A stretch of DNA of 45,621 nt from Synechococcales cyanobacterium S06 (lineage in GTDB: Bacteria > Cyanobacteriota > Cyanobacteriia > Cyanobacteriales > JAABRE01), in assembly GCA_011391125.1 (NCBI GenBank), contig JAABRE010000042.1, forward strand, positions 1 through 45,621, read 5' to 3'. This document shows positions 3,671 through 45,621 of this stretch, piece after piece; the first letter of the stretch is position 1, and every line of letters starts with the position of its first letter. The translations under genes were made by a program, and so were the position numbers. The notes beneath the pieces were generated by a model, which worked only from the letters and a program-made list of their open reading frames with translations, did no database searches and was not told the DNA's origin.

Positions 3671-4127
3671 ACTATACCTAGATGATATACTCGCAAGTAT
3701 CAACAAAATAAAAAAATATACTGCTCAAATGAATTTAAACGAATTATTAGAAGATGAAAAAACCTTAGATGCCGTTATTTTTATAGTAATTCCAATTAAG
3801 ATTAGAACAGTTAAAAAATAGGTTCGTAGTTGCGCTTTAGCGCTTCTTAGGACTAAAGTCCAACAACAAACTAAAAACTTTTGTTTAATTTTTATTTGGA
3901 ATTACTATAACTTACAAATTATCGGTGAAGCTAGTAAAAAGATACCCGAAAATATTAGAAAACAACAAGCATAAATTTCCTGGAAAAATATCATTGGCTT
4001 AAGAAATATTATTGCTCATGTTTATTTTTCCCTTGATTATGAAGTTATTTGGGATATTATTAACACAAAATTAGATGACCTTAAAAATTGCGTGGAAATT
4101 ATGATTCAAGATGAAAATATACCTTAA
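3654..4127 (+). pseudogene. HEPN toxin (HepT-like) interrupted by a MITE
   Basis: The ATG at 3654 starts MSRSIKLYLDDILASINKIK and runs to TLDAVIF, where a 124-bp element (3784-3907) intervenes. The protein resumes at 3909 as NLQIIGEASKKIPENIRKQQ. Removing the element with one copy of its TA duplication joins the two parts in frame. A further in-frame TAA follows KQQA, just before ISWKNIIGLRNIIAHVYF. RNIIAH is the R-x4-H motif of HEPN ribonucleases. The gene therefore has two independent lesions. As it stands translation ends inside the element after about 56 residues, so no active toxin is expected. Confidence 0.88.
3784..3907 (+). mobile_element. MITE family A, copy 1 (in the HEPN gene)
   Basis: This is a 124-bp element with termini TAGTAATTCCAA and TTGGAATTACTA, flanked by TA on both sides (3782-3783 and 3908-3909). 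The interior contains GCGCTTTAGCGC and GGACTAAAGTCC, each self-complementary. It has no open reading frame. A TA duplication is what IS630/Tc1-mariner-type transposases produce, so a non-autonomous derivative is likely. Confidence 0.9.
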
Positions 4128-4200
4128 TTAACCTATAACATAAAAATACCTAGGTGGGCATGGCCCACCCTACTTAATATTGTTTTTTAAACTACAAACA

Positions 4201-5388
4201 TTACACGTTAACTACGTTAGCAAATTTTATTTTTAAGTAGTCATCTTCCATTTTTGCCCCGGATGGATTGAGAGCGGCCAAAGCTTGAGGTAATACTAAA
4301 TTTCGTCTATGATTCCCGATTCTAATATTAAGTTCATCTCCGGTTTTATTTAACTGAATTTGTTGTTTGGGAATACCGGGTAAATACAATTCTAAGCTAT
4401 AATTACTGCCATCTTGTACTACTTTGAGAGTATTTTCTTTGTAATAAACTTGTGCCGGATCTTCGTCTTTATAAAGGGTTTCTTTTAACCTTTCTAACGC
4501 TTCTAAACCGCACATTTCCTCTGAATAAAGGGGGACTTCTTTGATAGGTAAAGGGTGAAAATTATCGTAAATTTCCTGTTTATGAATTTTCTGACTTTCT
4601 TTCCAACGCTCAAAAAATGGATCATTTACTGTCTCAGGAATTATCCTATTTGCTACTACTAAATCCGTCGAAACGTTATATAAACTAAGGTAAGCATGGG
4701 CGCGCAATGACTCTTTGATTACCATTTTTTCCGGATTCATTACTAACCTAACCGTAGTTTTTGTGTTATCAGTCAAAACTTTTTCTAAAGCCTCAATTTG
4801 CTCGTAAAATTCATAGGGAGCATCCATCACTTCCTTGTTAGGAAGGGAAAATCCGGCGATCGGTCTGAAAATAGGTTCAACCAAAGGGCGTAAAGCAACT
4901 GAAATACTTTGTAAAGGTTTGTAAAATCTTCTCATATACCAGCCGCCAACTTCCGGAAGACTCAACAACCTTAATGCTGTTCCCGTGGGCGCTGAGTCAA
5001 TAATCAAAACGTCAAAATCCCCTTCATCGTAGTGGCGTTTCATTCTGACCAGTCCGAAAATTTCATCCATGCCAGGTAAAATGGCAAGTTCTTCAGCTTG
5101 CACACCGTCTAAACCCCGAGCTTGCAAGACTTGGGTGATGTAGCGTTTTACTGCGCCCCAGTTGCCTTCTAATTCCATGAGTGCGTCTAATTCCGCACCC
5201 CACAAGTTGGGTTTTACCTTCACGGGGTCATGACCTAATTCCAAGTCGAAACTATCGGCCAAGGAATGGGCCGGATCTGTACTTAAAACAAGGGTTTTAT
5301 AGCCCAATTCGGCGCAACGTAACCCCGTTGCAGCAGCCACGGAGGTTTTGCCAACTCCCCCCTTACCAGTCATTAAAATTACGCGCAT
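4201..5388 (-). CDS. ArsA/Get3-family ATPase with C-terminal Hsp20-like domain
   Basis: This 395-residue protein opens [16 protein letters not shown], the deviant Walker A of the ArsA/Get3 (TRC40) family, followed by a P-loop-linked [12 protein letters not shown] and by the switch [12 protein letters not shown]. The last 80 or so residues ([29 protein letters not shown]) form an alpha-crystallin-like ArsA_HSP20 domain common in cyanobacterial members. Such proteins bind ATP as homodimers. Eukaryotic Get3 delivers tail-anchored membrane proteins and bacterial ArsA drives arsenite export. No arsenic genes are adjacent, so a chaperone-like role is more plausible (inference). The start ATG at 5388 places the P-loop at residue 8, as usual. 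Confidence 0.9.
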
Positions 5389-5491
5389 GGTTTGATTTTA
5401 TCCTCGCTTAGAAAAGGTTTACATTACTTTACGTTATTTTTAGGGTGTTTAACGACTGCTCTCCCTATTTGTTAAAATATTCCTCTCACTG

Positions 5492-5522
5492 AAAAAAAAT
5501 CCGATTACTGTTAAAATCGGAT
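5492..5522 (-). terminator. Rho-independent terminator after the Uma2 gene
   Basis: Read on the minus strand, ATCCGAT and ATCGGAT flank a short loop and are followed by a run of eight T. It lies 38 bases past the stop of the Uma2 gene. The stem sequence is shared with the dispersed AAATCCGATTTTT repeats of this genome, so a repeat may have been adopted as a terminator. Confidence 0.65.
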
Positions 5523-5559
5523 ATCTAACTGTTGCTAAATTAGATTAAAATGAAGCCAA

Positions 5560-6306
5560 TTATTCGCCTTTGATGTCAATTCTTGATTGCTGCAAAAGTT
5601 CACGCAATCGTTGAATTTCTAACTCGGCGGCTTCAGCACGTTGCTGTTCTTGATCAGCACGTTGTTGTTCTTGGTCAGCACGTTGTTGTTCTTGGTCAGC
5701 ACGTTGTTGTGCTTGGTCAGCACGTTGTTGTGCTTGATCCGCCCGTTGTTTAAATTCTATGGTTGTTAAAAAGGAGCTACCATCTGGGTAATACACCTCT
5801 AAGGTTTCGGGAGTCATCACTAGACGTATCCCCAGTCGAGGACTTGTCCAGTCGGACATATCTTCAATAAAGATCAAATGACCTTCTTGTCTTTGTAGTC
5901 CGGTTAATTCATGGCGATCAGGATCATATAGATAGTATTCTTCAACTCCATGGCGATCGTAAAATTGCTGTTTTTTGATCATTTCCTTTAAAGTGTTACC
6001 AGGGGAAAGGATTTCAAAGACAACTTGGGGAGTAATATTCTCCTCCTGCCATTGACGATAAGAACCTCGATCGCCTTTAGGGCGGCCAAAAACCACAAAA
6101 ATATCGGGAGCGACGCGAAGTTCGGGTTTTCCTTCCACCGGATACCAAAGTAGGTCTCCAGCAACAAAAACCTGATCATTCTGAGCAAATAAACACTCTA
6201 AATTTTCTTTAAAAAATACAATCCAACGAAACTGTTTTGTGTTATCGGCCATGGGTTGTCCATCACTATCAGGATAAATTATTTCACGTTCGAGAGCAAC
6301 AGTCAT
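5560..6306 (-). CDS. Uma2-family (DUF820) putative endonuclease with heptad tail
   Basis: This 248-residue protein has the Uma2 core of the PD-(D/E)XK nuclease fold: FVAGDLLWYPVEG, then RVAPDIFVVFG (catalytic Asp region), then PQVVFEILSPGNT and the strand VEEYYLYDP. The family is hugely expanded in cyanobacteria and its cellular role is unknown. The C-terminus carries five tandem RADQ(A/E)QQ heptads plus a sixth diverged one, giving a charged helix or coiled coil encoded by an almost exact 21-base repeat (about 5640-5750). I chose ATG 6306 over a TTG at 6327. Confidence 0.85.
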   Translation of the reverse strand: MTVALEREIIYPDSDGQPMADNTKQFRWIVFFKENLECLFAQNDQVFVAGDLLWYPVEGKPELRVAPDIFVVFGRPKGDRGSYRQWQEENITPQVVFEILSPGNTLKEMIKKQQFYDRHGVEEYYLYDPDRHELTGLQRQEGHLIFIEDMSDWTSPRLGIRLVMTPETLEVYYPDGSSFLTTIEFKQRADQAQQRADQAQQRADQEQQRADQEQQRADQEQQRAEAAELEIQRLRELLQQSRIDIKGE

Positions 6307-6367
6307 AATTAAAAAGGGTTTTTCCAAGTATTAAATAAAATGTTAACATATTTTATTTAGCGATCGG

Positions 6368-6739
6368 CTAAAAATGCTGTTTAATCACATCCCAAATGGA
6401 ACAATCCCAATAGTCAAGATGGGAAATAATGAGGTTATTTTCGTTTAATTTTAACTCACTTCTACCGGAAATGGAGATCGCTGGTTGCCAAGGTAAAGGA
6501 GTAGTCCATTCAAGTGTCCATTGTGTATAAATGGTCTCATTTTTTTGCTCAATATTATGTAATTTCATCTCAATATTTTTAAACCAAGTTGTCATAAATT
6601 GGATCATTTGTTGATAACGTTTTATTCCTGTAAACCTATTTAATGGGTCTTGAAAATATACATTTTCAGCGTAAATATTATAGGTTTGATTAACAGGAAA
6701 TCTTTGATAATCTTGGGTGAGTATTTCTATAAGATTCAT
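6368..6739 (-). CDS. DUF2358 (SnoaL/NTF2-like) protein
   Basis: This 123-residue protein begins MNLIEILTQDYQRFPVNQTYNIYAENVYFQDPLNRFTG. The YAENVYFQDP string and the later WTLEWTTPLPWQP and ISHLDYWDCS fit the DUF2358 family, a cone-shaped NTF2-like fold conserved in cyanobacteria and plants with unknown function. The length is complete for the family. It is followed by the Uma2 gene on the same strand, 61 bases away, and may be cotranscribed with it. Confidence 0.8.
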   Translation of the reverse strand: MNLIEILTQDYQRFPVNQTYNIYAENVYFQDPLNRFTGIKRYQQMIQFMTTWFKNIEMKLHNIEQKNETIYTQWTLEWTTPLPWQPAISISGRSELKLNENNLIISHLDYWDCSIWDVIKQHF

Positions 6740-6863
6740 TTTGATTTAAGCTTTCTTTAAGAGCTGGAACGCAGCAAGAGGCCTGTTCCACAATTGGATT
6801 ATTATACTATATTTGGGACAACCATTTTGCCGCGTCCTAATAATCTTATGAATTATCAAAAAA

Positions 6864-7541
6864 ATGAAAATTTTATTAGTGGAAGATGATGAGAGAATTG
6901 CTGATAGTTTAGCCGAAGGTTTAATTAATGAAAAATATACTGTGGAAATCGCAAAAGATGGCCAATTTGCCTTAGATTTATTGGCAATGTTTAGCTATGA
7001 TTTAATCATTTTAGATTGGATGTTACCTAAAGTTGATGGTATTACTGTCTGTCAAAAATTAAGAAGAAATGGCTCATCTATTCCCATTTTAATGTTAACA
7101 GCAAAAGATGATAATTTAGCTCAGGTTATGGGGTTAGATTCAGGAGCAGATGACTATATTATTAAACCTTTTGAATTTAAGTTATTACTAGCGAGAATTA
7201 GAGCTTTATTACGGAGAGGAAATACCAGTTTACCTCCGATTTTAACTTGGGAAAAGTTAAGTCTTGATCCCAGTAAAGCTGAAGTTAAATATAACGGTCA
7301 TTTACTACATTTAACTCCCAAAGAATATGCTTTATTAGAATTATTTTTGCGTAGTGGAGATCGCCTTTTAAACCGTAGTATGATTTTAGATCATTTATGG
7401 ACCTATGAAGATTCACCGGGGGAAGAAACGGTTAAAGTTCATTTACGCAGTTTAAGATTAAAATTAAAAGCAGTCGGAGCTCCTAGTAATTTAATTGAGA
7501 CAATTTATGGCATTGGTTATCGGCTCAATCCCAACATCTAA
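6864..7541 (+). CDS. OmpR/PhoB-family response regulator
   Basis: This 225-residue protein has a receiver domain at about 1-115 with acidic pocket VEDDE, phosphoacceptor Asp51 in LIILDWMLPKVDG, the conserved Lys in YIIKPFE and the switch Thr in MLTAKD. A winged-helix DNA-binding domain occupies about 125-222 (LHLTPKEYALLELFL, ETVKVHLRSLRLKL, IETIYGIGYRL). It resembles cyanobacterial regulators of the RppA/NrsR/CopR type, which respond to redox state or metals. The kinase gene overlaps its last 35 bases. The partner genes downstream (PepSY-like membrane protein, rubrerythrin, Rieske protein) suggest a redox or metal stress signal, which is inference. Confidence 0.92.
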   Translation: MKILLVEDDERIADSLAEGLINEKYTVEIAKDGQFALDLLAMFSYDLIILDWMLPKVDGITVCQKLRRNGSSIPILMLTAKDDNLAQVMGLDSGADDYIIKPFEFKLLLARIRALLRRGNTSLPPILTWEKLSLDPSKAEVKYNGHLLHLTPKEYALLELFLRSGDRLLNRSMILDHLWTYEDSPGEETVKVHLRSLRLKLKAVGAPSNLIETIYGIGYRLNPNI

Positions 7542-8886
7542 TTCCCAATTTCAGGCACTAAAATTACGTTTATTATTATCCTATTTAGGGGTAATGGTAA
7601 CAATTTTAGGGACAACAGGAATCGCAATTCATCAATTTGTAGCCCAGAGTATTTATCAACAGTTGGATCGTCATTTATTAACTTTAGCGGAAACAGCGGC
7701 TCAAACTTTTGACATTGTTAAACATGAAGCTTCTGAACATAAAAAAGGTTATGATGATGATGATAAATATGAGCAAAATTCAGCCAAAAATATCACTAAT
7801 TTAATGGAAGGATACCAAAATAATCAGTTTCTTAATCTGCCTATTCTTCCTAATCATTTTCAAGGAGTAGAATGGTTTAATGAGAAACATCAATTATTAG
7901 TAAAAGAGGGAAATTTATTCCCCAATTGGTCTTTAGATACAAAATTAATAAAAGCTGAGTCCAGTTTGATCCAAAAAGATCAAATTCGTAGTTTAATTTT
8001 ACCGGTAATGTATGTTAATCATCACACAGGTAAGCCGCAAATAGCCGGTTATATTCGGGCTAGTGAGTCCATACAACCCTTAGAATTAGAATTAAGTCAT
8101 TTACGTTGGGGATTAAGTTTAGGCGGAATTTTTGCCCTAATTTTGACAGGTTTAGGCGGAGTTTGGCTAACAAGTCAGGCAATTAGACCGGTTGAAAAAA
8201 GTTTTGAACAATTAAAACAGTTTACCTCGGATGCTTCCCATGAATTGCGATCGCCTTTAACTGTTATCAAAACTTCTCTTGATATTCTCGAATCTCATAG
8301 CGAAAATCTTGATCTTCAGGATCGAAAAAAAGTAAATGCGATCGCCCATTCTGCTGATCAAATGACACATTTAGTCGAGGATTTATTATTATTAGCAAAA
8401 ATGGAGCAACCAACTATTACGAAAACTTGGATTAAAGTACCTCTTGAAGAAATTTTGGAAGATTTAATAGACGAATTAGAAATTAAATTTGAGCAGAATA
8501 ATATTAATTTTAAATATTATTTATTAGCCAATATTTTTGTCAATGGAGATGCTTTACAATTAAAAAGAATCTTTACCAATTTACTCGAAAATGCCTTACA
8601 ATATACCCCAATTGATGGTGAAATCGAGCTAAAAATGCAGAGTATTAAAGAGCAGATAATTATTACGGTAACAGATAGTGGAATTGGGATTGCAAAAACT
8701 GATTTAGATCATGTTTTTGACCGTTTTTGGCGGGCTGATCAAGCCAGAGAAAAGCGCTCCGGAGGCATGGGAATGGGGTTAGCAATTGCCAAAAGTATTG
8801 CCAACAAACACGGAGGTAAAATAACCGTTACCAGTGAATTAGGAGTCGGTAGTTGTTTCAAAGTACAGTTACCATTTGTTTATTGA
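7507..8886 (+). CDS. Membrane sensor histidine kinase
   Basis: This 459-residue protein has membrane helices at about 21-47 and 203-225 around an extracytoplasmic domain, then a HisKA domain with phospho-His245 in SDASHELRSPL, an N box (FTNLLENALQYTP) and G boxes (DSGIGIA, GGMGMGLAIAK). The sensor domain contains HEASEHKKGYDDDDKYE (about 73-89), a His- and Asp-rich patch that could bind metal. The kinase is paired with the upstream regulator by a 35-base overlap. The start ATG at 7507 is preferred to a TTG four codons earlier. It resembles the RppB/NrsS/CopS group of cyanobacterial kinases, but the ligand cannot be told from sequence. Confidence 0.9.
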   Translation: MALVIGSIPTSNSQFQALKLRLLLSYLGVMVTILGTTGIAIHQFVAQSIYQQLDRHLLTLAETAAQTFDIVKHEASEHKKGYDDDDKYEQNSAKNITNLMEGYQNNQFLNLPILPNHFQGVEWFNEKHQLLVKEGNLFPNWSLDTKLIKAESSLIQKDQIRSLILPVMYVNHHTGKPQIAGYIRASESIQPLELELSHLRWGLSLGGIFALILTGLGGVWLTSQAIRPVEKSFEQLKQFTSDASHELRSPLTVIKTSLDILESHSENLDLQDRKKVNAIAHSADQMTHLVEDLLLLAKMEQPTITKTWIKVPLEEILEDLIDELEIKFEQNNINFKYYLLANIFVNGDALQLKRIFTNLLENALQYTPIDGEIELKMQSIKEQIIITVTDSGIGIAKTDLDHVFDRFWRADQAREKRSGGMGMGLAIAKSIANKHGGKITVTSELGVGSCFKVQLPFVY

Positions 8887-9001
8887 TAAGCAAAACAATG
8901 TACCTGTTCCACAGATAATTAATGATCTTTCCGAGTTTTTTACTTTTGTTTACTAAGCTATTTCTATAAAGCTAATTGAGCTAATTTATCGCGGAAAAAT
9001 T

Positions 9002-9289
9002 ATGGATATACGTCAATTTCGTAAAATACATCGCACCCTTGCGCCAATTTTATTTTTACCTTTTTTTATTACGGCAATAACAGGAATAATCTATAGATTA
9101 GCTGGAAGTTGGTTTGGAGTAGAAAAGGAAGCGCGGGAATTTCTCATGGTAATTCATCAAGGAGAATATTTAGGCGAGCAATTAAAACCTATCTATGTAT
9201 TTTTAAATGGTTTAGGTTTAATTGGGATGTTAGTAAGTGGAATTGTCATGACAGGTATCTTTAAAAAACGTCCTCAAAATTCCGATTAG
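9002..9289 (+). CDS. Small PepSY-associated membrane protein
   Basis: This 95-residue protein starts MDIRQFRKIHRTLAPILFLPFFITAITGIIYRL, resembling the N-terminal membrane helix of PepSY-associated TM proteins (R..H...A....P.....TG..Y). A second helix, NGLGLIGMLVSGIVMTGIF, ends the protein, with about 30 extracytoplasmic residues between (HQGEYLGEQLKPIYVF). Similar small proteins sit beside cyanobacterial metal- or redox-responsive two-component genes. Function is unknown. It lies 115 bases after the kinase and 46 bases before the rubrerythrin gene, so a four-gene unit is likely. Confidence 0.75.
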   Translation: MDIRQFRKIHRTLAPILFLPFFITAITGIIYRLAGSWFGVEKEAREFLMVIHQGEYLGEQLKPIYVFLNGLGLIGMLVSGIVMTGIFKKRPQNSD

Positions 9290-9335
9290 CTAATAATTTA
9301 TTCACTAAAATTAACTACTTTTGTCACTATTAAAA

Positions 9336-10150
9336 ATGAAAAACTTTAACTTTTCTCAAGCAAAAACTCCCCTCATTTTAGCCTCAGTAATTAGTCTTTT
9401 TACCCTGGTAGGTTATGCTACTTTGTCTCCATCAGCAATGGCAATTAAAAACACTACGGAAATAGCAGCTAATACTGATAAAAATGCAACTACTCTTAAG
9501 AATCTTCAAGCAGCTTATAATGGAGAATCTAACGCCAATGTCCGTTATTTAGCATTTGCTAAAAAAGCAGATCAAGAGGGTTATAAAAAAGTAGCAACTC
9601 TCTTTCGCGCAGCTGCTTTAGCCGAACAAATTCACCGCGATAATCATGCTGCTGTGATTACTCAAATGGGGAGTACTCCAACCGATAAAATTGAAACTCC
9701 CGAAGTAAAATCCACCTCAGAAAACCTCAAAGCAGCCATTGAGGGGGAATCCTACGAAAGAGATACCATGTATCCTGAATTTATCGCTCAAGCTAAATCC
9801 GTTGGCAATTTGGAAGCCATTCGTACCTTGACTTTTGCCGAAGAAGCTGAAGCAGGACACGCATCGTATTATACAGAAGCTCTCAATAATTTGGAACAGT
9901 GGAAAGTTGGTATTAGACCTCTTGCGAAAGTATGAAAAATGGTCATTATGAGCGGCAGCGAAGAATCTCCGAGATACTTCGCTACACTGTGTTTCGCTCA
10001 GTATGACAAAAAAATCTAATTATGTTTCGCAAGAGGTCTAATGTTGCGTTTTATGTGTGTCCTGAATGTGGTTTAACTACTGATCAGCTTGCTTTTGAAA
10101 ATTGTCCTGAATGTGGTGAACCTAAAGACGAATTTCAAAAGGTAATTTAG
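9336..10150 (+). pseudogene. Exported rubrerythrin with its rubredoxin domain severed
   Basis: ATG 9336 begins a signal peptide (KTPLILASVISLFTLVGYA, processing near AMA), followed by a ferritin-like domain with both EAxE/H di-iron helices: NGESNANVRYLAFAKKA, AALAEQIHRDNH, EGESYERDTMYPEFI, FAEEAEAGHASYY. The frame stops at 9935 inside a 123-bp inserted element. After the element, at 10041-10150, the missing rubredoxin-like domain follows: FYVCPECGLTT...NCPECGEP, with two CxxC pairs, ending EFQKVI. Excising the element with one TA restores WKVGINVAFYVCPECG in frame. The truncated 200-residue product keeps the di-iron domain but loses the FeS4 site that passes electrons to it. Confidence 0.88.
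9916..10038. mobile_element. MITE family B, copy 1 (in rubrerythrin)
   Basis: This is a 123-bp element with perfect 14-base terminal inverted repeats, GACCTCTTGCGAAA and TTTCGCAAGAGGTC, flanked by TA at 9914-9915 and 10039-10040. Related copies lie at 33599-33692 and 38095-38263. The interior contains TACTTCGCTACACTGTGTTT, a motif not found in the other two copies, so the interiors differ between copies. There is no coding capacity. Confidence 0.85.
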
Positions 10151-10186
10151 CCTTTTTGTCTCGTTATTTCCTTAAGGAGAGTTATG

Positions 10187-10251: not shown

Positions 10252-10321
10252 GTAATAATTAGGCTATTATTTTTACTCTCCTTTTTCGATAGTTTTTAGC
10301 AAAAATATTAAGGTCAATTTT

Positions 10322-11531: not shown

Positions 11532-11540
11532 ATTAATAAA

Positions 11541-17343: not shown

Positions 17344-17675
17344 ATGTCAGTAATGATCGAGCAGGATTTAAAGGAATATCTGGATCAACGATTTGAAAAA
17401 ATTGACCGACAATTTGAAAAGATTGACCAAAAATTAGAGAGAATTGAAAACGATGTTACAGATTTAAAAATTGGTCAAGCAAGATTAGAAGAAAAAATTG
17501 ACGGTTTAGATAAGCGACTTGAGTTTCAAGAGTTTATTAATCGTGGTGTTTTGATGGGTAACTTCCCCCCTTTCAAGGGGGGGTAGGGGGGTACATCATT
17601 TTTATTCTAGCAATCTTAGGAGGTTTAGCAATAGTTTTCGGATTAGTTGGTAATCCTTATAGTAATTCCAAATAA
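17344..17675 (+). pseudogene. Coiled-coil membrane-anchored protein, doubly interrupted
   Basis: ATG 17344 starts MSVMIEQDLKEYLDQRFEKI, then heptads of the type F.KIDQKLERIE, then FQEFINRGVLMG. A 41-bp insert (17560-17600) containing CCCCCCTTTCAAGGGGGGG breaks the frame and gives a stop at 17584. Behind it the C-terminal membrane helix continues in frame as FILAILGGLAIVFGLVGNP. Next the MITE at 17660 sits in the TA of the TAG stop codon, changing the end to NPYSNSK. The intact paralogue at 30166-30528 (ends GLVGNP, stop) confirms both reconstructions. Function is unknown; paralogues share the MSVMIEQDL start and FQEFINRGV...LGGL..FGLVGNP end. Confidence 0.85.
17560..17600. repeat. 41-bp GC-rich palindromic insert
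   Basis: The insert has CCCCCCTTTC and GAAAGGGGGG-type halves followed by a run of TAGGGGGGTACATCATT. Its boundaries are defined by comparison with the intact paralogue at 30 kb. A related C-run/G-run palindrome lies in the element at 32631-32731. 41 is not a multiple of three, so it shifts the frame. Confidence 0.7.
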
Positions 17676-17783
17676 AAATTAAACAAAAGTTTTTAGTTTG
17701 TTGTTGGACTTTAGTCCTAAGAAGCGCTAAAGCGCAACTACGAACCTATTTTTTAACTGTTCTAATCTTAATTGGAATTACTA
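17660..17783 (-). mobile_element. MITE family A, copy 2
   Basis: This is a 124-bp copy in the opposite orientation to copy 1, flanked by TA at 17658-17659 and 17784-17785. It is inserted in the TA of the stop codon TAG of the coiled-coil gene. From 17784 to 17947 there is no gene: AAATCGGATTT at about 17797 and a GTAGGGTGCGTCACATTTG repeat at about 17819-17880. Confidence 0.9.
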
Positions 17784-22182: not shown

Positions 22183-22544
22183 CAGAAAATTAGGTGTTAA
22201 AAACTAATCAGAAAAAATAATTTAAAATTTTTGAAATTGAGATTTAACTAAATATTATGATTAAATAATATCAATTTTTTTAGTCAAAATTTGAGTAAAA
22301 ATAAACAATTTTCTTAGTGTAATTATCCTACTAATTTTAGGGGTTCTGATTGAATAAATCTCTCGAATTCTGCGAATGTTAAGTATTTTCACTTAGTAAT
22401 TTCCCCATCAATAAAGAGTTTTTTAACTTCTCAGGGGTAAAAATGAGAGAATTGTTACAATATGTAAATTAATTTAGCTAGTATGATATCCTTAGCAGGA
22501 TCAAGGTTAAAATAACTTAATCTTAATCCATATTCTGATCACTG

Positions 22545-22810
22545 CTCGTAAATCTAGTATTTTCTGGTAATAACTGGAAAATAAGAGCCGTTGCAGTCTA
22601 AGTCTTTCGAGGGCTACGTTAGTTAAGTCATCATACCCTAGGATGAACGCCAGTCCTAGGCTCTATGTTCAAGTATTAAATAAGTCCGACTAGACGGCCG
22701 TGTACTGGGAATGACAAGCTTTTCTAACATTGACGAGGCCAACTTTACCCGTGAGAACGGAGATTAAAAATAATAGTACCGGGGCATCGTGCTTTGGTAG
22801 TATTATTTTT
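22545..22810 (+). ncRNA. Candidate structured RNA upstream of the PSII-assembly genes
   Basis: This sequence is much less AT-rich than its surroundings and has no open frame. Visible helices: 22558-22564 with 22577-22583; 22637-22643 (CCTAGGA) with 22654-22660; CCGT GAGA ACGG, a GNRA-capped hairpin at 22749-22760. A long-range helix pairs GCCGT...AGTC (22587-22598) with GACT...ACGGC (22688-22698), closing a multibranch domain. The 3' end is a terminator-like hairpin. I compared it by eye with tmRNA, 6S, RNase P RNA, SRP RNA and common riboswitches and found no match. It could be a free RNA or a leader/attenuator of the operon starting at 22939. Boundaries are approximate; a weak TATGAT box lies at 22482-22487. 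Confidence 0.55.
22766..22810 (+). terminator. Terminator-like hairpin at the end of the RNA candidate
   Basis: AAAAATAATA.TACC pairs with GGTA.TATTATTTTT (one G-G mismatch) around a loop that itself holds GCA/TGC, ending in five T. It would end a transcript about 128 bases before the next start codon. A further hairpin, TACCAATA/TATTGGTA, lies at about 22819-22853. Confidence 0.6.
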
Positions 22811-22938
22811 ATAACAACTACCAATACATAAGGTCCTACTGGATATTGGTAATTAGCCGTCCTTTAATCTTTGCGTTGAATGACCCTTTTTACCAGAAAT
22901 TACCAGTAAAAGCGGTATCTAATTATAGCAGTATCAGT

Positions 22939-23502
22939 ATGTCAATTTCCCTCTTACATCGTTATTATTTACAAAAACTTGTGCGTCAAAAAATGACCTT
23001 GAATATTAATATTCAAGGTGCTAATATTAGCTTGAATTTAGCACAAGTTTCGTCGAATTTAAGCTTTAACGATTTAGAAGGTAGGGAAAAATATATTCGA
23101 TTAGAATTATTGATTAGTATGCATCAAAAATTAGCCACAAATGGAACTATCTATGCTGATAAATTATCACAAATAGAAAAGGATATTTTTGCAATTTTAC
23201 AACTAAAAATGGAGGCAAATGCCTACCTATCTTGGTTAAACAGATTAAGTGATCTAGCTAAGAAATATTTGGGAACAAATATGGTGGTCAAATACTGGAA
23301 ATCGAGTCAAGATAAGTTAGACTTAGAGCTATTTGAAGTTAGTAATTCAGGAGAGATAACCTTCACAGGTTCGACTAATGATTTTATTACCGAAGAACAA
23401 CAAAAAAAAATACAGCTTTGGATTGAAAAATTTATCGCCCATTGTAGTATAATTATTCGGGGTTTTGAAGAAACAATTGTGGCGGAAATTCTAATAAAAT
23501 AA
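22939..23502 (+). CDS. Unknown protein, paralogue of the 19.4-kb gene
   Basis: This 187-residue protein is read from ATG 22939 (MSISLLHRYYLQKLVRQK), which aligns with the start of the paralogue at 19372; an upstream TTG would add 31 residues with no counterpart. The shared core and spacing are as described there. It differs in the first third (NINIQGANISLNLAQ) and lacks the paralogue's C-terminal SFKNSALF tail. It precedes the V4R gene by 30 bases with AAAGGAG between, so it is probably the first gene of the photosystem II assembly operon here. Confidence 0.75.
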   Translation: MSISLLHRYYLQKLVRQKMTLNINIQGANISLNLAQVSSNLSFNDLEGREKYIRLELLISMHQKLATNGTIYADKLSQIEKDIFAILQLKMEANAYLSWLNRLSDLAKKYLGTNMVVKYWKSSQDKLDLELFEVSNSGEITFTGSTNDFITEEQQKKIQLWIEKFIAHCSIIIRGFEETIVAEILIK

Positions 23503-30956: not shown

Positions 30957-31080
30957 TAGTGATTCCAATTAAGATTAAAACAGTTGAAAAATAGGTTCGT
31001 AGTTGCGCTTTAGCGCTTCTTAGGACTAAAGTCCAACAACAAACTAAAAACTTTTGTTTAATTTTTATTTGGAATTACTA
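30957..31080 (+). mobile_element. MITE family A, copy 3 (in the trypsin/TPR gene)
   Basis: This 124-bp copy has the left end TAGTGATTCC (one change from copy 1) and the right end GGAATTACTA, with TA at 30955-30956 and 31081-31082. Its sequence is nearly identical to copy 4. It lies inside the 3' end of the minus-strand protease gene and supplies that gene's present stop codon. Confidence 0.9.
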
Positions 31081-32458
31081 TATCATTATTTCCCTGCTGT
31101 TTATAAAGATTAGCCGCTTGTTGCCAATCCCGTCTTGCCTCTGGGTATTTATCTAAAAAGAAGTAGGCAGCACCCCGACCAATGTAGGTATCAGCATATT
31201 GGGGATTAAGTTGAATCGCTTTGGTATAATCGGCGATCGCCTCGGGGTATTTTTTTAAGTCATCGTAGGCATTACCCCGATTATAGTAGGCCGAAGCCTT
31301 TTGGGGATTAAGTTGAATCGCTTTGTTGTAATCGGCGATCGCCTCTGGGTATCTTTGTAAGTTTTTGTAGGTAAGACCCCGATTAATGTAGGCAGCAGCA
31401 GATTGGGGATTAAGTTGAATCGCTTTGTTATAATCAGCCATCGCCTCTTGGTATTTTTGTAAGTTAGAGTAGGCAGCACCCCGATTATGGTAGGCATTTG
31501 CATATTGGGGATTAATGGCAATTGCCTGGTTATAATCAGCGATCGCCTCGGGGTATTTTTGTAAGTTATAGTAGGTCTTACCCCGATTAATGTAGGTATC
31601 AGCAGATTGGGGATTAATAGCAATGGACTGATTATATAAAGCAATTGCTCCTTGATAATCTTTTCGATCGGATTTTTGATTAGCTTGAATAAAATAATCA
31701 GCCACCGTCAAAGGGGTGGTGACTTTGGCATTGGCATTAAAGGCAATTTGGTTAGTTAAACCGAGGTAGGAATTAATGGGAATCGCTAAATTGAAACCCG
31801 TTTTAACTCTAATATTGGGATCCGCCGTAGCTTTGCTGTCCTCACCATCTGCTCGGTCATGTACGCCAACAATTTTGCCATTCTCATCTAAAACCGCACC
31901 CCCACTCATACCCGGGAGGGTTTGATTATCATAAACCAAACCATAACCCTGATCAAAAGGTCGAGAAGCCACCGCCGTTAAATCACCCTTTTTAAAAATG
32001 AAAAGAGGATTGGTAATAACGGCCGTGGGCAGAGGAAAACCCGCTACATATAAGGTTTTGCCCTCTTTTAAGGTGGCGGAGTCTCCCATTTGACCCACTT
32101 GATAGGCTTTATTGCTGGTGAACTCCACCACCGCTAAATCCCAATCCTTACCGAAAGTTTGGATATTTTTCGTATTCATGGCATGATTTTGACCGTCAAC
32201 AGTGGTCACAGTGGCTTGTTCACCCTTGGCAATATCCTCAATCACATGACGAGCGGTTAAAACCTTGTAGGTATTACCATTTTTGCCAATAATAATACCA
32301 GACCCCGGATCACTGGCACTGACAATACGCACCGTGATTTTTTTAGCGATGTCCGCTATTTGTTCTGAAGATAAGGCTGCGATACTCGGCTGTAATGAGA
32401 CCATCGCCATGGTTGCAGCCCCGAAAATTACTGTCGGTAAATGATAATTTTTAAACAT
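31058..32458 (-). CDS. Exported trypsin-like protease with TPR repeats
   Basis: This 466-residue protein has a signal peptide (ATMAMVSLQPSIAALS), then a trypsin/HtrA-like domain with His71 (TARHVI), Asp107 (KDWDLAVVEF) and Ser185 (PGMSGGAV), then about six TPRs of the form AIADYNKAIQLNPQ.A.AY.NRG..Y..L.KYPE from about 255 to 450. There is no PDZ domain. Repeats of 102 bases are obvious in the DNA. The current C-terminus IVIPNKN is encoded by the MITE. Excising that element gives MYQMVIEFLNELPR and a stop at 30911, so the last 14 native residues have been replaced. The core is untouched and it may still function in the periplasm. Confidence 0.9.
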   Translation of the reverse strand: MFKNYHLPTVIFGAATMAMVSLQPSIAALSSEQIADIAKKITVRIVSASDPGSGIIIGKNGNTYKVLTARHVIEDIAKGEQATVTTVDGQNHAMNTKNIQTFGKDWDLAVVEFTSNKAYQVGQMGDSATLKEGKTLYVAGFPLPTAVITNPLFIFKKGDLTAVASRPFDQGYGLVYDNQTLPGMSGGAVLDENGKIVGVHDRADGEDSKATADPNIRVKTGFNLAIPINSYLGLTNQIAFNANAKVTTPLTVADYFIQANQKSDRKDYQGAIALYNQSIAINPQSADTYINRGKTYYNLQKYPEAIADYNQAIAINPQYANAYHNRGAAYSNLQKYQEAMADYNKAIQLNPQSAAAYINRGLTYKNLQRYPEAIADYNKAIQLNPQKASAYYNRGNAYDDLKKYPEAIADYTKAIQLNPQYADTYIGRGAAYFFLDKYPEARRDWQQAANLYKQQGNNDIVIPNKN

Positions 32459-38483: not shown

Positions 38484-38524
38484 TTTTTCTTATTAATAAA
38501 TAATTAGTTGTTACAATTATAAAA

Positions 38525-38556: not shown

Positions 38557-39148
38557 GACGGCCATTTTGAATAATATTTAACATATCAGTCAGCTGATTT
38601 TCAATCTTAGTTAATACTTGATCGGCATAATCATCGGCACCTTGTTGAATCTCATCGCATTCATCTAAGGTCATTTGGCGCATTTGTTCTAATTCTTGAT
38701 AGGTTTTTTGTCTCATTTCGTCAAGTTGGGCGATCGCCTCCTGTTGCATTTGATGACATTCCCTTTCCACCTGTCGCCGAATTTGATTGGCTTCACTTTC
38801 AGCATGACGGACAATATCAGTTTGTGCAATCATTTGCGAAGCCTGTTGCTGTGCTAGGGCAATAATGGCTGCCCCTCGCTGCTCGGCTTGCTGTACAATT
38901 GTTTGTTCAATGGCGATAATATCTTCAGCTTTCTGAAGCGCTACCGGCAAACTCACGCGGATAAAATCAACCTGCGCTAAAATCTCATCCTCATCAATTA
39001 AAGTGCGACGGATAAAGGGAATCCGAGGATTATCAATGATTTTTTCTTCGAGGCGATCGAGTTCTAATTGAATATCTAAATTTTCTCCTTCGTGGGGAGG
39101 GAGGTGATTATTGGTGTCAGATTGATCCCATTGAGGTTTTTGTAACAT
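38534..39148 (-). CDS. Coiled-coil (DivIVA/ATP-synthase-b-like) protein
   Basis: This 204-residue protein has an acidic N-terminus ([21 protein letters not shown]) that docks before [19 protein letters not shown], then about 110 residues of Ala/Gln/Glu-rich coiled coil ([20 protein letters not shown] and so on). Such proteins follow coaD in many cyanobacteria and are annotated as DivIVA- or ATP synthase b-like by composition only. The ATG at 39148 lies inside coaD, giving a 73-base overlap. The function is unknown. Confidence 0.75.
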
Positions 39149-39621
39149 AAATAAATATCATCAGCAACATTGTTCGGAACAAGATGATCAATAGAACCGC
39201 CAAATTGGGCAATTTCTTTGACCATGGAACTACTTAAAAAACTATACTCATTGGAAGTAGCTAAAAAAACAGTTTCTATTTCACCCCAAAGAGTCTTATT
39301 TGCGTGGGCCATTTGTAGCTCTTTTTCAAAGTCAGAAACGGCTCGTAAACCTCGGATTAAAATTCCGGCATTTTGCGATTTGGCATAATCTACGGTTAAG
39401 CCGACAAAACTATCTACCTTTATATTAGATAATTTTTCAGTAGATTTTTTAATTTGTGCTAAACGTTTTTCCAGAGGAAATAAAGGTTGCTTATTCGGGT
39501 TACAAGAAACGATAACAATGATCTTCTCAAATAATCTCGATGCTCTCTCAATAATATCAAGATGACCGAGAGTAATGGGGTCAAAACTACCGGGATAAAT
39601 CGCAATTTTATTATTAATCAT
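39076..39621 (-). CDS. coaD: Phosphopantetheine adenylyltransferase
   Basis: This 181-residue protein has [19 protein letters not shown] (nucleotidyltransferase HxGH motif, TLGH), [18 protein letters not shown] and SSSMVKEIA near the end, all diagnostic of CoaD. It makes dephospho-CoA from 4'-phosphopantetheine and ATP in coenzyme A synthesis. ATG 39621 overlaps the end of the ROK kinase gene by 4 bases. The C-terminus [18 protein letters not shown] extends about 15-20 residues beyond the usual family end and is read from the same DNA as the start of the next gene. Confidence 0.93.
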
Positions 39622-40514
39622 TTTTGTTCTATTTGTTGCCAAGCTAATTTAGCTGCTCCCACCATACCAGCCGAATTACCCAAAGAAGCCGTTAACAACT
39701 TAAGATTAACACGGGAACTAGGTAAAACACGACGCTCAATTTCCGCCCTCGTAGCTGGGAGGAAAAATTCACTACTAGCACTGACTCCGCCACCAACAAT
39801 GACGGCTTCGGGAGTTAAAACATAGATTAAACTTGCTAAACCCGCCCCCAATAACTTGCCGTAATCTTCCCAAAATTGTAAAGCGACAGGATCGCCATTT
39901 TCGGCTAATTTACCTAATTCTAGGGGTTCTTTGCCCGTTTGTCGGCGAATGGCCGTCACTGAGGTATATTGCTCGAAAGAGCCGTTATTGCCACTATTAC
40001 AAGGAGGACCATCGGGGTTTAAAGTAATTAAACCCAATTCGGCCGCTGAACCTAAACGACCTGTAAACAGTTTACCATCGAGGATAACTGCACCACCGAC
40101 ACCGGTGCCCAAGGTTAACATGATTAGATTTTCATAATAGCGCCCTGCCCCTAACCAAGCTTCCCCTAAACCAGCGCAATTGGCATCATTAGCGATTATT
40201 GTAGGTAATCCGGTTTCGGTTTCCAGTAAATCGGCTAAAGGTACATCATGCCAACCAGCCAAATTAATCGCTACTTTAGCGATTCTACCCTTGGCATCGG
40301 CCGGTCCTGGTGTACCTAATCCCATCGCTCTTGCTTGATTGTTAGGATCAAGTTTGCCCACAGCGGCGGCGATCGCCTCGACAACAGCTTCGGGGGTGGA
40401 AGGTTGGGGGGTGGGGATACTTAGTGACTGGTGACAAGTACCATCTTGGGCAAAACGTCCCATTTTGATGGCGCTGCCTCCTAAATCAATGCCGATTACT
40501 TGATTTTCTGTCAT
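39618..40514 (-). CDS. ROK-family sugar kinase (glucokinase-like)
   Basis: This 298-residue protein has ATP-binding [13 protein letters not shown], the catalytic Asp in [24 protein letters not shown], and the glycine-rich VIVGGGVS. The usual ROK zinc motif CxCGxxGCxE is here [11 protein letters not shown], which keeps only the first Cys, so the site probably does not bind zinc. Related cyanobacterial glucokinases appear to share this, from memory. Probable reaction: glucose plus ATP (or polyphosphate) to glucose 6-phosphate. It is first in a unit with coaD and the coiled-coil gene. Confidence 0.88.
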
Positions 40515-40739
40515 GATTTTTTGTGGTTAGTTAGTGGTTAAGTTTAGACCCATTTAATTTGCTAATTTTAGCGGCCAAGAGGCCCGCTCCACAATGTTTA
40601 TAATCTGAAAGTAAATGAATCTAAGCTTATTAGTTATATCAAATTCAGCTAATTACTTCTTAATTTGTTACTTTTAACTTTTGAATAGTACGGGTTTTTG
40701 CCTGATCATCTAATCGCAAATAATTGTAGTCAAACTGAG

Positions 40740-42134
40740 TTAATTGGATTCAAAACCATAAATATACCCATCAAGAAGATGGATACGCTGAAATAGGCTA
40801 AGTTGTCCTCCAATTCTTTTTCCCTGAGTTCTTACTTCTAGTCGAGTAGCTGATTGAACTACTATTTTACCTGTGTAAGAAACACCGTTTTTAACTACTT
40901 TGGCAATGTCTCCTGTTTGCCATCCATGCTGGTATTTTTGCCTTGGTTTTGAAATCGGAAAACCATATTTATTGATTCGACATAACCTTCTTGTGCTGCG
41001 ACCTTTAGCTGTTATTATTAAAGGTTTATTAGTTAATATTTTTAGATCATTAATATTACCTACACAAGCGGCCTCTAACCAATGAGTTTTTGGTAAACCA
41101 AATTTAATTCGATTAAATTTGGTTTTACCTCCACTACTTGTAGTAACTGGTAATCCTAATTCTTTCAAGGAATTAAATAATTTCCAGCGAGTAGAATTAA
41201 CAGCCGTGGCATCTTTTAAGGGTTGTTTTGCCTGCTTTTTAATCTTATTTAATAGGTCAAATTTTCCACTTAAAAAGTCTTCAATTTGACGACTTCCTTT
41301 TTTTTCATTACAATTTCTACAAGCGAGGGTAAGATTAGAAATACGATTTGTACCTCCTAAAGATTTAGGTTTAATGTGTTCGATTTCTAAAGGAATATCT
41401 TTTTTCCCACAATAAACACAGTTTCTACCCCATTTTTCTAGCAGATATTCTCTGATTTCGTAACCTTGTAATTCTCCCTGCTGATATTCAAGTCCCGAAA
41501 TTTCAGGATTTTGTAATTTTTGCAAATCAAATTTCACCAATTCTTGAGCAATATTAGTAATTGGTGTGTACTTACAAAGTCGTTTAAGCCAAGTCAAAGT
41601 TGTTAAAACACGGTGTAGCAATGATGGAGCTAACCAACCATTTGGACGTTTCCTATTAAGAAAGCGTGGTTTTCTGTACCTTGTATGTCTATTACGGCGA
41701 CTTCGGCGAACTGCTTTTCTAGTTTCCAAACTATCTTTAATTTGTTGTCCTCGATGTTGCAATTGTGCACCCCAAATAACCTTATTGTTAGTTACCAAGG
41801 CAATTCCTGTGGTTTTTGAGCCTGGGTCTAACTTTAGTTCAATGGGTTGCGTTACTATTTCTGTTTTCACCTCCTTGAGGATAATCGTAAATGGATAACG
41901 TCTGAAAACAGCCGCTTTTTCTGTATTTAATAGCTTTCTAGCCACAGAGGGGTGAGTTGGTTGTAAGGGTATTTTGTTAGCATCTATAGTGATTCCAATT
42001 AAGATTAAAACAGTTGAAAAATAGGTTCGTAGTTGCGCTTTAGCGCTTCTTAGGACTAAAGTCCAACAACAAACTAAAAACTTTTGTTTAATTTTTATTT
42101 GGAATTACTATAAAACAAAAACATAATTACTCAT
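40740..42134 (-). pseudogene. iscB: IscB RNA-guided nuclease interrupted by a MITE at codon 9
   Basis: The present open frame (40740-41945, GTG start) has a RuvC-I motif (IELKLDPGSKTTGIAL), an Arg-rich bridge helix (RKAVRRSRRNRHTRYRK), RuvC-II (NIAQELVKFD), an HNH domain (CVYCGKKDIPLEIEHI, SLGGTNRISNLTLACRNC) and RuvC-III (THWLEAACVG). The true N-terminus is split: ATG 42134 gives MSNYVFVL, then the 124-bp element, then DANKIPLQPTHPSVARKLL in the frame of the GTG. Removing the element and one TA joins them exactly. Translation from ATG 42134 now stops at once (TAG in the element). The RuvC-III position that is normally Asp reads Glu. IscB proteins are IS200/IS605-associated nucleases ancestral to Cas9. 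Confidence 0.92.
41987..42110 (+). mobile_element. MITE family A, copy 4 (in iscB)
   Basis: This is a 124-bp copy nearly identical to copy 3 (left end TAGTGATTCC), flanked by TA at 41985-41986 and 42111-42112. It sits between codons 8 and 9 of iscB. Element plus duplication is 126 bp, which preserves frame, but the element brings a stop codon at its edge when read in the iscB direction. Confidence 0.92.
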
Positions 42135-42139
42135 TTCTA

Positions 42140-42345
42140 AGAACTCCTATTGCTAGGGTAAAGTTTGCTTCAACCTTGTTGTCTAAGCTTGTTAGGTCAA
42201 TAACACTATTCTTGCAAATTGTTTAATTATTGACGATAGAGCTTGAAACTAGCGAATTTCAAGGTATCTTGACCTAAATAACGTTTCCCTTTAATCAGGG
42301 GTTTGGTTCACACTTACTACGATTTACACCTATAGTAAGTGATCC
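42140..42345 (-). ncRNA. Putative IscB omega-RNA (HEARO-like)
   Basis: The non-coding stretch directly upstream of the iscB start has the position and structure expected of an IscB guide RNA. Read on the minus strand it has a 9-bp hairpin CACTTACTA/TAGTAAGTG (42311-42319 with 42333-42341), a 9-bp long-range helix joining 42192-42200 (TTAGGTCAA) and 42269-42277, and inside it the hairpin TTGAAA/TTTCAA (42243-42248 with 42257-42262). The guide would be at the 5' end, near 42345-42365. Identity is inferred from position and fold; the boundaries are approximate. Confidence 0.65.
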
Positions 42346-42428
42346 CACAATCTATTAAGAATTGCTATATAGTAAGATTATTAACCTTCAATTTAACAAA
42401 CATTCTTTATTTAATAAATTAAATAACC

Positions 42429-45308
42429 ATGATAGCCAATCATGCAATCTGGTCCTTTACTCCTGAAGAAGTTTACGAAAGCTTAGAAACTTCTGCTCAG
42501 GGTTTATCAGAAGCTGAAGCAGCCCAAAGACTAGCAAAATACGGTCTCAATGAACTACCAGAACCTGTGCAGCGTCCTCTCTGGTTACGTTTTACCGATC
42601 AATTAACTCATTTTATGGCATTATTGCTCTGGAGTGCGGGAGTTTTGGCGTTTATTTCCGGTACTCCTGAACTCGGTTGGGCAATTTGGGCCGTAATTTG
42701 GATTAATGCTCTCTTTAGTTTTGGGCAGGAATTTCGCGCCGAAAAAGCTTTAGCGGCCTTAAAAAAAGTCTTACCTAGTCAGGTGAAAGTCTATCGAGAC
42801 GGCGAATTAAAGCAGATTTTAGCACGGGAATTAGTCCGCGGTGATCTAATTCAATTAGAAGAAGGCGATCGCCTTTGCGCCGATGCTAGGTTGGTTTCCG
42901 CCGACAACCTTTATCTCGATGTTTCCGTCATGACGGGGGAATCATTGCCAGTTTCTCGTCAAGCTGAACCAGCCCAAGTAAGGCAAATTGTACCGATACG
43001 GGGGGAAACAGCGATGTTAGAACAAGGTGAAACCCCCCTCCAAGAGACGGTGAAACCCGCCGAAATTCGCAATTTAGTCCTAGCTGGATCGACAGTTTCC
43101 GCCGGGAGAGGAGTGGCCGTGGTTTTTGCCACGGGAGCGCAAACGGAATTTGGCCATGTAGCCCAACTTACCACCAAGGTAATTCGAGAAGCCAGTACCT
43201 TAGAAGTAGAAATCAGTAAAATTGTCCGTTTAATCACGATAATTGCCCTGAGTATGGGGACAATCGTGTTTTTATTGACTTCCTTACTGGTGGGAATGGA
43301 GGTCAAAGAGAGCTTTATTTTTGCCATTGGGATTATTGTTGCCCTTGTACCCGAAGGTCTCTTACCCACTGTTACTCTGTCTTTAGCCATGGGTGTGCAA
43401 CGCATGGCCAAGCGCAATGCTTTGGTGCGTCGGCTTTCTGCGGTGGAGTCGTTGAGTGCGACAACGGTTATCTGCACGGATAAAACAGGTACATTGACTA
43501 AAAATGAGATGACCGTGCGATCGCTCTGGATACCCAACGGCGAAGAGGGCAAAACCGTGGAAGTCACAGGAGTAGGTTATGATCCCGGCACGGGAAAAAT
43601 TATTCAATCTACTGAACCTCAAGCACAGCAACAGGTTGAGCTATTGTTAGTTGGTGCGGCGCTTTGTTCCAATGCCCATTTAGTGCATCCCCCCGGAACG
43701 AGTCGTTGGCAGGAAATGGGAGATCCCACCGAAGCAGCTTTATTGGTAGTCGCTTTAAAAGCCAATTTAAACTTAGAAGACTTACAAAAGCAATATCGCC
43801 GACTGCGGGAAGTTCCCTTTGATTCCCAACGACGGATGATGACAGTGGTATTAGACTGGCAAAAATCGGCGTTATTTGCCAATGAAAGTCCCTATTTGAG
43901 CTTTACCAAAGGTGCACCTTTAGAAGTATTGCGGCCTTGTCAGTCCATTTTACGTAATGGACAAATCCAAGAATTAACCAAGGGCGATCGCCAGCAAATA
44001 ATCACAGCGAATGATCGCCTTGCGCAAAAAGGGTTTCGGGTGTTAGGGGTAGCAATTCGCCAAGGAGAACAAAAACTGCTAGAATTTCCCCCCCAAACCT
44101 TAGAACAAAACCTCATTTTTATTGGTTTAATCGCCATGTTTGATCCACCGCGCCCAGAAGTTCCCGAGGCGATCGCCCGATGTCATGAAGCGGGAATCGC
44201 CATCACCATGGTAACCGGGGATTATGGCTTAACTGCGGCGGCGATCGCCAAAAACATTGGTTTAGTAGGCGATAAAGTCAGAGTGGTGACAGGAGATGGT
44301 TTAGGAAACCTTTCCGATGCGCAACTGAGGCAAATTTTGCAATATCGTACCGGATTAGTTTTTGCGAGGATGGCCCCCGAACAGAAATTGCGCCTCGTGC
44401 GGGCCTACAAGGATTTGGGTCATATTGTCGCTGTAACAGGGGATGGAGTCAATGATGCCCCCGCCCTCAGAGCGGCTCATATCGGGGTAGCCATGGGCTT
44501 AAACGGCACAGATGTAGCGAGGGAAGCAGCGGACATTGTGCTGACTGATGATAATTTCGCCACTATTGTCAGTGCGATCGAGGAGGGCAGGACTGTTTAC
44601 CAAAATATTCGCAAATTTATGACCTATATTTTGGCCTCCAACGTGGCGGAAGTTGTACCTTTTTTACTCATGGTCGCTTTGAAAATTCCACCTGCTTTAT
44701 TAATTATGCAAATTTTAGCCATTGATTTGGGAACCGATATAATTCCAGCTTTAGCTTTGGGGGTTGAAACCGCCGAACGAGGTACAATGCAACAACCTCC
44801 CCGTTCTAAAACTATACCCTTACTGGATCGATCCTTGTTGCTGCGTGCCTACGGCTTTTTAGGCTTAATTGAAGCGGCGATCGGAATGCTGGGATTTTTC
44901 ATCATTTGGTGGAGTTATGGCTATGGATTAGCTGAACTACAGGAAGTTACTCCGGCAATTTTGGCACACACTGCTGACGCAACCGTCATGGCAATTTATG
45001 CCCAAGCAACCACCATGACCTTAGCAGCGATTGTCGCTTGTCAAGATGGTAACGTTTTTGCCTGTCGTTCGGAGAAAACTTCCACATTTAAACTGAAATG
45101 GTTTAGCAACCCTTTAATTTGGTTTGGTATAGCAACCGAGTGGGTTTTAATCCTCTCCTTAATCTACTTTTCACCCCTAGAAAAAATCTTCGCCACTGCT
45201 CCCCTATTGGGTTGGCAAATTGGGATTTTATTTTTATGTCCTCCCCTATTATTAGGAGCAGAAGAAATGCGAAAAATGGTGTTAAGAAAAAAGGTAAAAA
45301 TAAGCTAA
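42429..45308 (+). CDS. P-type cation-transporting ATPase (P2-type)
   Basis: This 959-residue protein has an N-terminal cation-ATPase domain (1-75), actuator motif TGES (169-172), the membrane motif VPEGLLPTVTLSLA (307-320), phosphorylation site Asp351 in DKTGTLTKNE, KGAPLEVL for ATP binding, MVTGDYGLTA and the hinge TGDGVNDAPAL. PEGLLPTVT is the pattern of P2C-type (Na+,K+-ATPase-like) pumps, whereas Ca2+ pumps usually have PEGLPA, so Na+ or K+ is a plausible substrate; this is an inference. It is complete, with about ten helices. A weak ribosome binding site precedes ATG 42429. Confidence 0.9.
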   Translation: MIANHAIWSFTPEEVYESLETSAQGLSEAEAAQRLAKYGLNELPEPVQRPLWLRFTDQLTHFMALLLWSAGVLAFISGTPELGWAIWAVIWINALFSFGQEFRAEKALAALKKVLPSQVKVYRDGELKQILARELVRGDLIQLEEGDRLCADARLVSADNLYLDVSVMTGESLPVSRQAEPAQVRQIVPIRGETAMLEQGETPLQETVKPAEIRNLVLAGSTVSAGRGVAVVFATGAQTEFGHVAQLTTKVIREASTLEVEISKIVRLITIIALSMGTIVFLLTSLLVGMEVKESFIFAIGIIVALVPEGLLPTVTLSLAMGVQRMAKRNALVRRLSAVESLSATTVICTDKTGTLTKNEMTVRSLWIPNGEEGKTVEVTGVGYDPGTGKIIQSTEPQAQQQVELLLVGAALCSNAHLVHPPGTSRWQEMGDPTEAALLVVALKANLNLEDLQKQYRRLREVPFDSQRRMMTVVLDWQKSALFANESPYLSFTKGAPLEVLRPCQSILRNGQIQELTKGDRQQIITANDRLAQKGFRVLGVAIRQGEQKLLEFPPQTLEQNLIFIGLIAMFDPPRPEVPEAIARCHEAGIAITMVTGDYGLTAAAIAKNIGLVGDKVRVVTGDGLGNLSDAQLRQILQYRTGLVFARMAPEQKLRLVRAYKDLGHIVAVTGDGVNDAPALRAAHIGVAMGLNGTDVAREAADIVLTDDNFATIVSAIEEGRTVYQNIRKFMTYILASNVAEVVPFLLMVALKIPPALLIMQILAIDLGTDIIPALALGVETAERGTMQQPPRSKTIPLLDRSLLLRAYGFLGLIEAAIGMLGFFIIWWSYGYGLAELQEVTPAILAHTADATVMAIYAQATTMTLAAIVACQDGNVFACRSEKTSTFKLKWFSNPLIWFGIATEWVLILSLIYFSPLEKIFATAPLLGWQIGILFLCPPLLLGAEEMRKMVLRKKVKIS

Positions 45309-45527
45309 TTAACTTCCATATTTAGGTAAGGTGGGCAATTACTGGTCAGATCGATCTTTTTATCTTAATTAGGGTTTACTGAAAAAAGCACAAAGCCATG
45401 TCGATCAAGAATTTCAAGTTGGTGGGACTTGAATTAAGTGCAAGGATGTCAACAAATAATAGTAAAAAACCTTACATCTACGGGGATTAATCAAGATTTT
45501 TGCTCGTCAAAAGACCCGGTCAAACTA
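45309..45527. other. Gene-free gap at the window end
   Basis: I see no gene in this gap. It leads to copy 5 of MITE family A. No interrupted frame could be recognised here, unlike at the four complete copies. Confidence 0.4.
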
Positions 45528-45621
45528 TAGTAATTCCAAATAAAAATTAAACAAAAGTTTTTAGTTTGTTGTTGGACTTTAGTCCTAAGAAGCGCTAAAG
45601 CGCAACTACGAACCTATTTTT
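45528..45621 (-). mobile_element. MITE family A, copy 5 (cut by window end)
   Basis: The first 94 bases of an element in the same orientation as copy 2 (TAGTAATTCCAAATAAAA...), preceded by TA at 45526-45527. It is identical to copy 2 over the visible length as far as I can see. The right end lies outside the window. Confidence 0.88.

Follow-up and report, generated by a model that had tools for sequence, protein, structure and literature searches.

Why should a single stretch of cyanobacterial DNA carry the same short sequence four times over, each time apparently in a gene? The stretch in question, which we call the window, comprises 45,621 nucleotides from Synechococcales cyanobacterium S06. 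A sequence-only reading had listed complete 124-bp copies of a MITE starting at 3784, 17660, 30957 and 41987, with a fifth from 45528, and saw insertion into genes as the main surprise. The copies are all there, with the ends and flanking TA described. Copy 1 (3784–3907, forward strand) lies within the remnant of a HepT-like gene, copy 2 (17660–17783, reverse) on the TAA of a coiled-coil gene, copy 3 (30957–31080, forward) 14 codons short of the end of a trypsin/TPR frame and copy 4 (41987–42110, forward) in codon 8 of IscB, where it separates the gene body from its HEARO RNA. Of the fifth (45528–45621, reverse), 94 of the 124 bases are present before the contig end cuts the rest off. The four complete copies have the ends TAGTRATTCC and GGAATTACTA, with TA at either side. 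Copies 1 and 2 have the same sequence in opposite orientation; copies 3 and 4 share the variant that is commonest in the genome.

How good are these four gene hits? The best is IscB. Its open reading frame as listed (40740–41945, reverse strand, with RRXRR and HNH domains) lacks the N terminus owing to copy 4. Read alone, it matches the RRXRR profile over positions 19–174 (225.3 bits), and with the flanks of the MITE joined the match extends to positions 1–174 (253.1 bits), as expected if excision gave back the N terminus. The HEARO RNA (RF02033; 42158–42311, reverse strand; 87 bits, cut-off 83) sits just upstream. At copy 3 the last codons of the trypsin/TPR gene as listed (31058–32458, reverse strand) fall within the MITE, and the frame runs 14 codons further on its other side, a putative original tail. 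Copies 1 and 2 are weaker cases. The HepT-like remnant (3654–3974, forward strand, taken up to a further in-frame stop, its pieces read apart) is indeed cut by copy 1, but its left piece scores 18.4 bits against a Pfam cut-off of 23.5, and the in-frame stop some 20 codons beyond the MITE means that the gene is broken independently of the insertion. The TA at copy 2 does belong to a TAA, but not in the frame of the listed coiled-coil gene (17344–17586, forward strand, 80 amino acids), which stops about 70 bp ahead of the MITE; it is another frame that reaches it. Elsewhere in the window there is a second HEARO RNA (22540–22748, 93.3 bits); no IscB was seen beside it, and the downstream open reading frame (22846–23502) matches no Pfam family.

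The genome, 4.81 Mb in 168 contigs, puts these copies in perspective. The whole-genome search that the sequence-only reading had called for, run with the 124-bp consensus and allowing up to three mismatches, finds 138 places, against none for the control. The genomic stretches we fetched hold 107 distinct full copies, 105 of them 124 bp long, one 123 bp and one 128 bp. TA stands on both sides of 101. Among the other six, two border directly on a TnpB-like element, two have a right-hand TT, one is without its left TA and one is truncated where its contig stops. The 105 copies of standard length comprise 25 distinct sequences, the commonest of which occurs 45 times, and their mean pairwise identity is 98.1%. 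This is an element of fixed short length and many copies, without coding capacity (there are stops in all six frames). Copy number and near-identity together show that it has spread in a recent burst, much as had been surmised from the likeness of the window copies. Several contigs (C8, C11, C90, C115, C130, C19, C104 and C105) start or end in or near IS or MITE copies, so the true copy numbers of both are probably higher than those counted.

Does the element favor genes? We took 89 of the 107 copies (those with a two-sided TA and flanking sequence of 500 bp or more) and measured the longest stop-to-stop frame across each empty site; the control was 3,600 TA sites drawn at random from the window and eight 15-kb stretches. 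Frames of at least 100 codons cover 18 of the 89 sites (20%), compared with 82% of the controls (Fisher p ~4e-35); at 60 codons or more the figures are 36 of 89 and 88%. In 11 of the 18 in-frame cases no more than 14 codons remain on one side, which places these copies at frame ends. Genome-wide, then, the copies strongly avoid open frames, contrary to the impression that the window had given. Within the window, two of the four complete copies pass the 100-codon mark and three pass the 60-codon mark; the binomial chance is 0.18 at both lengths, and the four are therefore no unusual sample of the genome. Gene hits inside one window give no sign of a preference for genes.

The opposite case can be stated fairly. 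A MITE that prefers coding sequence or is tolerated there, or one that acts as an in-frame insert in the manner of the Rickettsia palindromic elements (RPE), would explain why copies 3 and 4 of the window occur within gene frames or where these end, why some genes elsewhere are split, and why 124 bp plus TA comes to 126, a multiple of three. The control just described rejects the preference, and the protein insert is rejected because none of the element's six frames is free of stops; we regard either version as extremely improbable. The Rickettsia elements are themselves palindromic, of similar size (~100–150 bp) and have some copies in genes, according to the accessible parts of two papers (PMC3733652, PMC10969869), but the MITE here is closed in six frames and avoids genes.

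Avoidance is not absolute, and real disruptions occur, IscB in the window being one. Elsewhere, the MITE interrupts a cyanobacterial gene for nitric oxide synthase (L159:1060–1183); the joined protein matches NOS from both bacteria and animals, and its alignment with PDB 2flq has no gap where the two parts meet. Family matches also span the junction in joined Hsp70-like and C5-methylase proteins, as they do in the joined IscB. Matches flank the MITE in an MvaI/BcnI restriction enzyme (positions 1–141 and 144–227), in a second HepT-like protein (positions 4–88 and 90–120, locus L156) and in a Phd/YefM antitoxin (positions 1–38 and 40–71, both below cut-off, locus L137). At L019 the left part of the split gene, the part scanned, is YafQ (positions 2–66), and at L091 the right part alone is recognized (RTX, cadherin). 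Copies in genes frequently lie near where the gene ends, or in genes that are dispensable. That many of the disrupted genes belong, by raw count, to dispensable classes would fit a loss of harmful insertions. The neighbors of the MITE point in a preferred direction too. With genes represented by open reading frames of at least 100 codons (the genome has no annotation), 85 copies had enough flank and 73 a called frame on both sides, to be set beside 585 typed control sites out of 710. Convergent neighbors are commoner around the MITE (20 of 73 against 75 of 585, p 0.002) and divergent ones rarer (9 of 73 against 146 of 585, p 0.02).

How, then, does the element move? The genome supplies its own empty sites. 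A transposase gene at locus L073 is interrupted by the MITE, and the two halves of that gene match positions 2–37 and 38–85 of DDE_Tnp_1_assoc (34.5 and 28.9 bits, cut-off 32.3); the interrupted transposon is one that we take to be ISAs1. A search with the sequence flanking the MITE there turned up three further copies of the transposon (L259, L260 and L261), with which contigs C8, C11 and C90 begin. They read ...TTTATA|ACTGG... where the filled site reads ...TTTATA, 124 bp, TAACTGG..., and L260 equals the right flank of L073 minus the TA over 153 bases. The 124 bp were therefore inserted and a TA was duplicated. Empty sites had been named as a check; here they are, in three other transposon copies of the same genome without the 124 bp and duplicated TA, and with the 101 TA-flanked copies they support the reading of the element as a MITE that duplicates TA. 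The target itself shows symmetry, with A at −5 and T at −3 before the TA and A at +2 and T at +4 after it, each at 60–67% in 99 copies. The MITE prefers targets like A.T-TA-A.T.

The next question is who does the moving. The Pfam DDE_3 profile finds 22 places in the genome, many at contig ends. One of them (locus L043) holds a complete, TA-flanked IS630 element of 945 bp, with open reading frames of 122 amino acids (HTH) and 160 amino acids (DDE) that match HTH_Tnp_IS630 and DDE_3, and a second copy is 98% identical. This is the IS630-type element with similar ends that had been put forward as something to look for. Between 20 and 23 of the first 27 bases agree between the MITE and IS630 ends, and the likeness extends over about 27 bp and no more. 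Past the 12-base tip, the left MITE arm scores above shuffled sequences with each of the seven IS ends compared. The right arm beats shuffles when set against IS end type A (0.5–0.8% of shuffles) and is no better than shuffled against type B (7–14% of shuffles). Among the matches listed, all 79 loci of the closest IS630 relatives are cyanobacterial by title, and ACTATA lies within ~45 bases past the transposase gene in 24 of the 25 relatives inspected from those 79, which come from other cyanobacteria. Judged by these ends, the resident two-ORF IS630 transposase probably moves the MITE in trans.

What the sequence-only reading overlooked, in an element that it rightly called a MITE, is the core. 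Element positions 39–88 hold two inverted hairpins, GTTCGTAGTTGCGCTTTAGCGC and, reversed, GTTTGTTGTTGGACTTTAGTCC, and the fold of the whole element is 6.1 standard deviations better than that of shuffles (z −6.1). The core thus consists of tagged imperfect palindromes in an inverted pair, the arrangement that defines a REP/BIME. It lies at 3822–3871 in copy 1, 30995–31044 in copy 3 and 42025–42074 in copy 4 (all forward), and at 17696–17745 in copy 2 and 45564–45613 in copy 5 (both reverse), each delimited by its sequence and its relation to REPs that flank a RAYT gene elsewhere in the genome. That gene (L068; NF047646, 93 bits, cut-off 80) has clustered GTTCGTTGTTGCGCTTTAGCGC and GTTGTTGGGCTTTAGCCC hairpins upstream, and a GGGCTTTAGCCC-type hairpin and a GCGC-type copy downstream. 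The clusters in which it is embedded (L068:1060–1960) are of two REP types, with GTTG in place of GTAG, and closely similar to the MITE core; in one of the types GGGC replaces the GGAC of the MITE. Closely similar hairpins that flank a RAYT gene, and that also occur outside the MITE, identify the core, by sequence comparison, as a REP doublet.

Could the RAYT be the mover, shifting the element as a REP or BIME with the arms as passive flanks? In favor is the RAYT gene with its closely similar REPs. Against it, the unit has a constant length of 124 bp, ends in terminal inverted repeats and comes with an exact TA duplication, and 18 REP matches outside the MITE lack the arms. We rate this reading as very improbable. 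The 18-base core motif, with up to two mismatches, occurs at 368 genomic places against none for the control. The first 100 matches listed are all exact: 82 are in the MITE or its remains (72 in copies already listed, one bearing an arm and nine of the 27 fetched) and 18, the remainder of those fetched, are without MITE arms (two of these being both strands of one palindrome). A search for GTAG-type REPs beside seven Y1-transposase loci gave one match (L065), itself a MITE copy; this negative is weak because the same search missed the GTTG-tagged REPs of L068.

Was the core captured at all? It might have arisen within the MITE, the free copies being decayed MITEs, and the 82 MITE-linked matches would sit well with that. 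Several things speak against it. Of 39 other genomes of the order, 9 match the core, through inner parts only (positions 11–109 among the matches listed), with no listed match reaching either end. The exact arm-plus-REP pattern occurs 155 times here and in none of 387 other genomes of the order. REP hairpins without arms flank the RAYT gene, and the same hairpin recurs in a second MITE-like family. An origin inside the MITE therefore strikes us as unlikely. In the viral contigs searched neither the left arm nor the arm-plus-REP pattern is present, and the 124-bp element has no match in the plasmids or phages searched.

Capture by the MITE is inferred, since the search among its variants turned up no ancestor that has these arms and lacks a REP. 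The variants include a 155-bp relative with two GCGCTTTAGCGC hairpins (L103), a longer relative with a single REP and other sequence (L105), and a 77-bp form without the core (L088) that looks like a deletion. The second small MITE-like family (L288–L297) has ends TAAGTAGGTAGTCA...TGTAACCACCTACTTA and occupies 10 genomic places by its right arm. Seven of the 10 carry the GCGCTTTAGCGC hairpin, the same REP as in the MITE; L292 and L294 have a GTAGGGGTCAACGGCC hairpin at the same place, and L296 has no clear hairpin type. Such a pattern suggests a central slot with an exchangeable hairpin.

The reading that we think very likely to be right is that of a non-autonomous IS630/Tc1-type MITE, with ends resembling those of the resident IS630 element, probably mobilized in trans by its transposase. 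Each insertion at TA duplicates the TA, at the preferred targets described above. At some point the MITE would have captured a convergent REP doublet of the RAYT-flanking kind, and a recent burst carried it to ~140 places. On the simplest account harmful insertions were then lost, so that copies persist mostly outside open frames. A broader idea we offer tentatively, and would sooner bet against than for: cyanobacterial REPs may often spread as passengers of DDE-type MITEs, not by RAYT, with at least two chassis here swapping central-slot hairpins, and the hairpin may be kept for making gene-end insertions harmless or useful, for instance as a transcription end between convergent genes.

There is precedent for the parts. 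Correia and RUP are IS630-derived elements, as the accessible part of one paper has it (PMC2817692), and MITEs in cyanobacteria have been reviewed (PMC10969869). Like Correia, RUP and Nezha, as far as the accessible accounts describe them, our element is short, noncoding and of high copy number, with inverted-repeat ends, and it has TA duplication and IS630-like ends; unlike them it has a REP doublet for a core (the Nezha of cyanobacteria being set beside it by description only). It shares closely similar hairpins with the REPs/BIMEs associated with RAYT, but here the REPs are carried by a TA-inserting element with IS630-like ends. The nearest likeness is in Anabaena variabilis, where GTAG-15 REP dimers lie in the middle of long TA-ended palindromes of the form TATAGGA...TCCTATA (PMC3733652). 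The arm sequence differs, and the accessible part of that paper gives the palindromes as a setting for REPs and does not term them MITEs; they are probably the same kind of chimera viewed from the REP side. With those dimers already published, a REP-cored MITE is not the first of its kind; the literature searched, with most subscription papers outside its scope, held no other report. New here is an IS630 MITE family that has been active recently and has REPs at its core, its insertion into genes being ordinary. DDE-type MITEs and RAYT-linked REPs, usually treated apart, are fused in one mobile unit; were such fusion general, a large share of how cyanobacterial REPs have spread would be explained by IS630 transposases. 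One genome provides the active family together with its likely helper, its empty sites and its target motif.

A minor observation concerns the two copies noted earlier that abut a TnpB-like element. At L012:1625 and L021:1224 this element directly adjoins the MITE end without TA, and the left flanks of the two differ. L012 was also weighed as an unoccupied counterpart of the second MITE site of L021 and set aside, because the right flanks are not the same. The C-terminal part of the TnpB-like element, as it occurs in L129, matches Cas12f1-like_TNB and OrfB_IS605 weakly, and the MITE end may serve as a target of this putative element.
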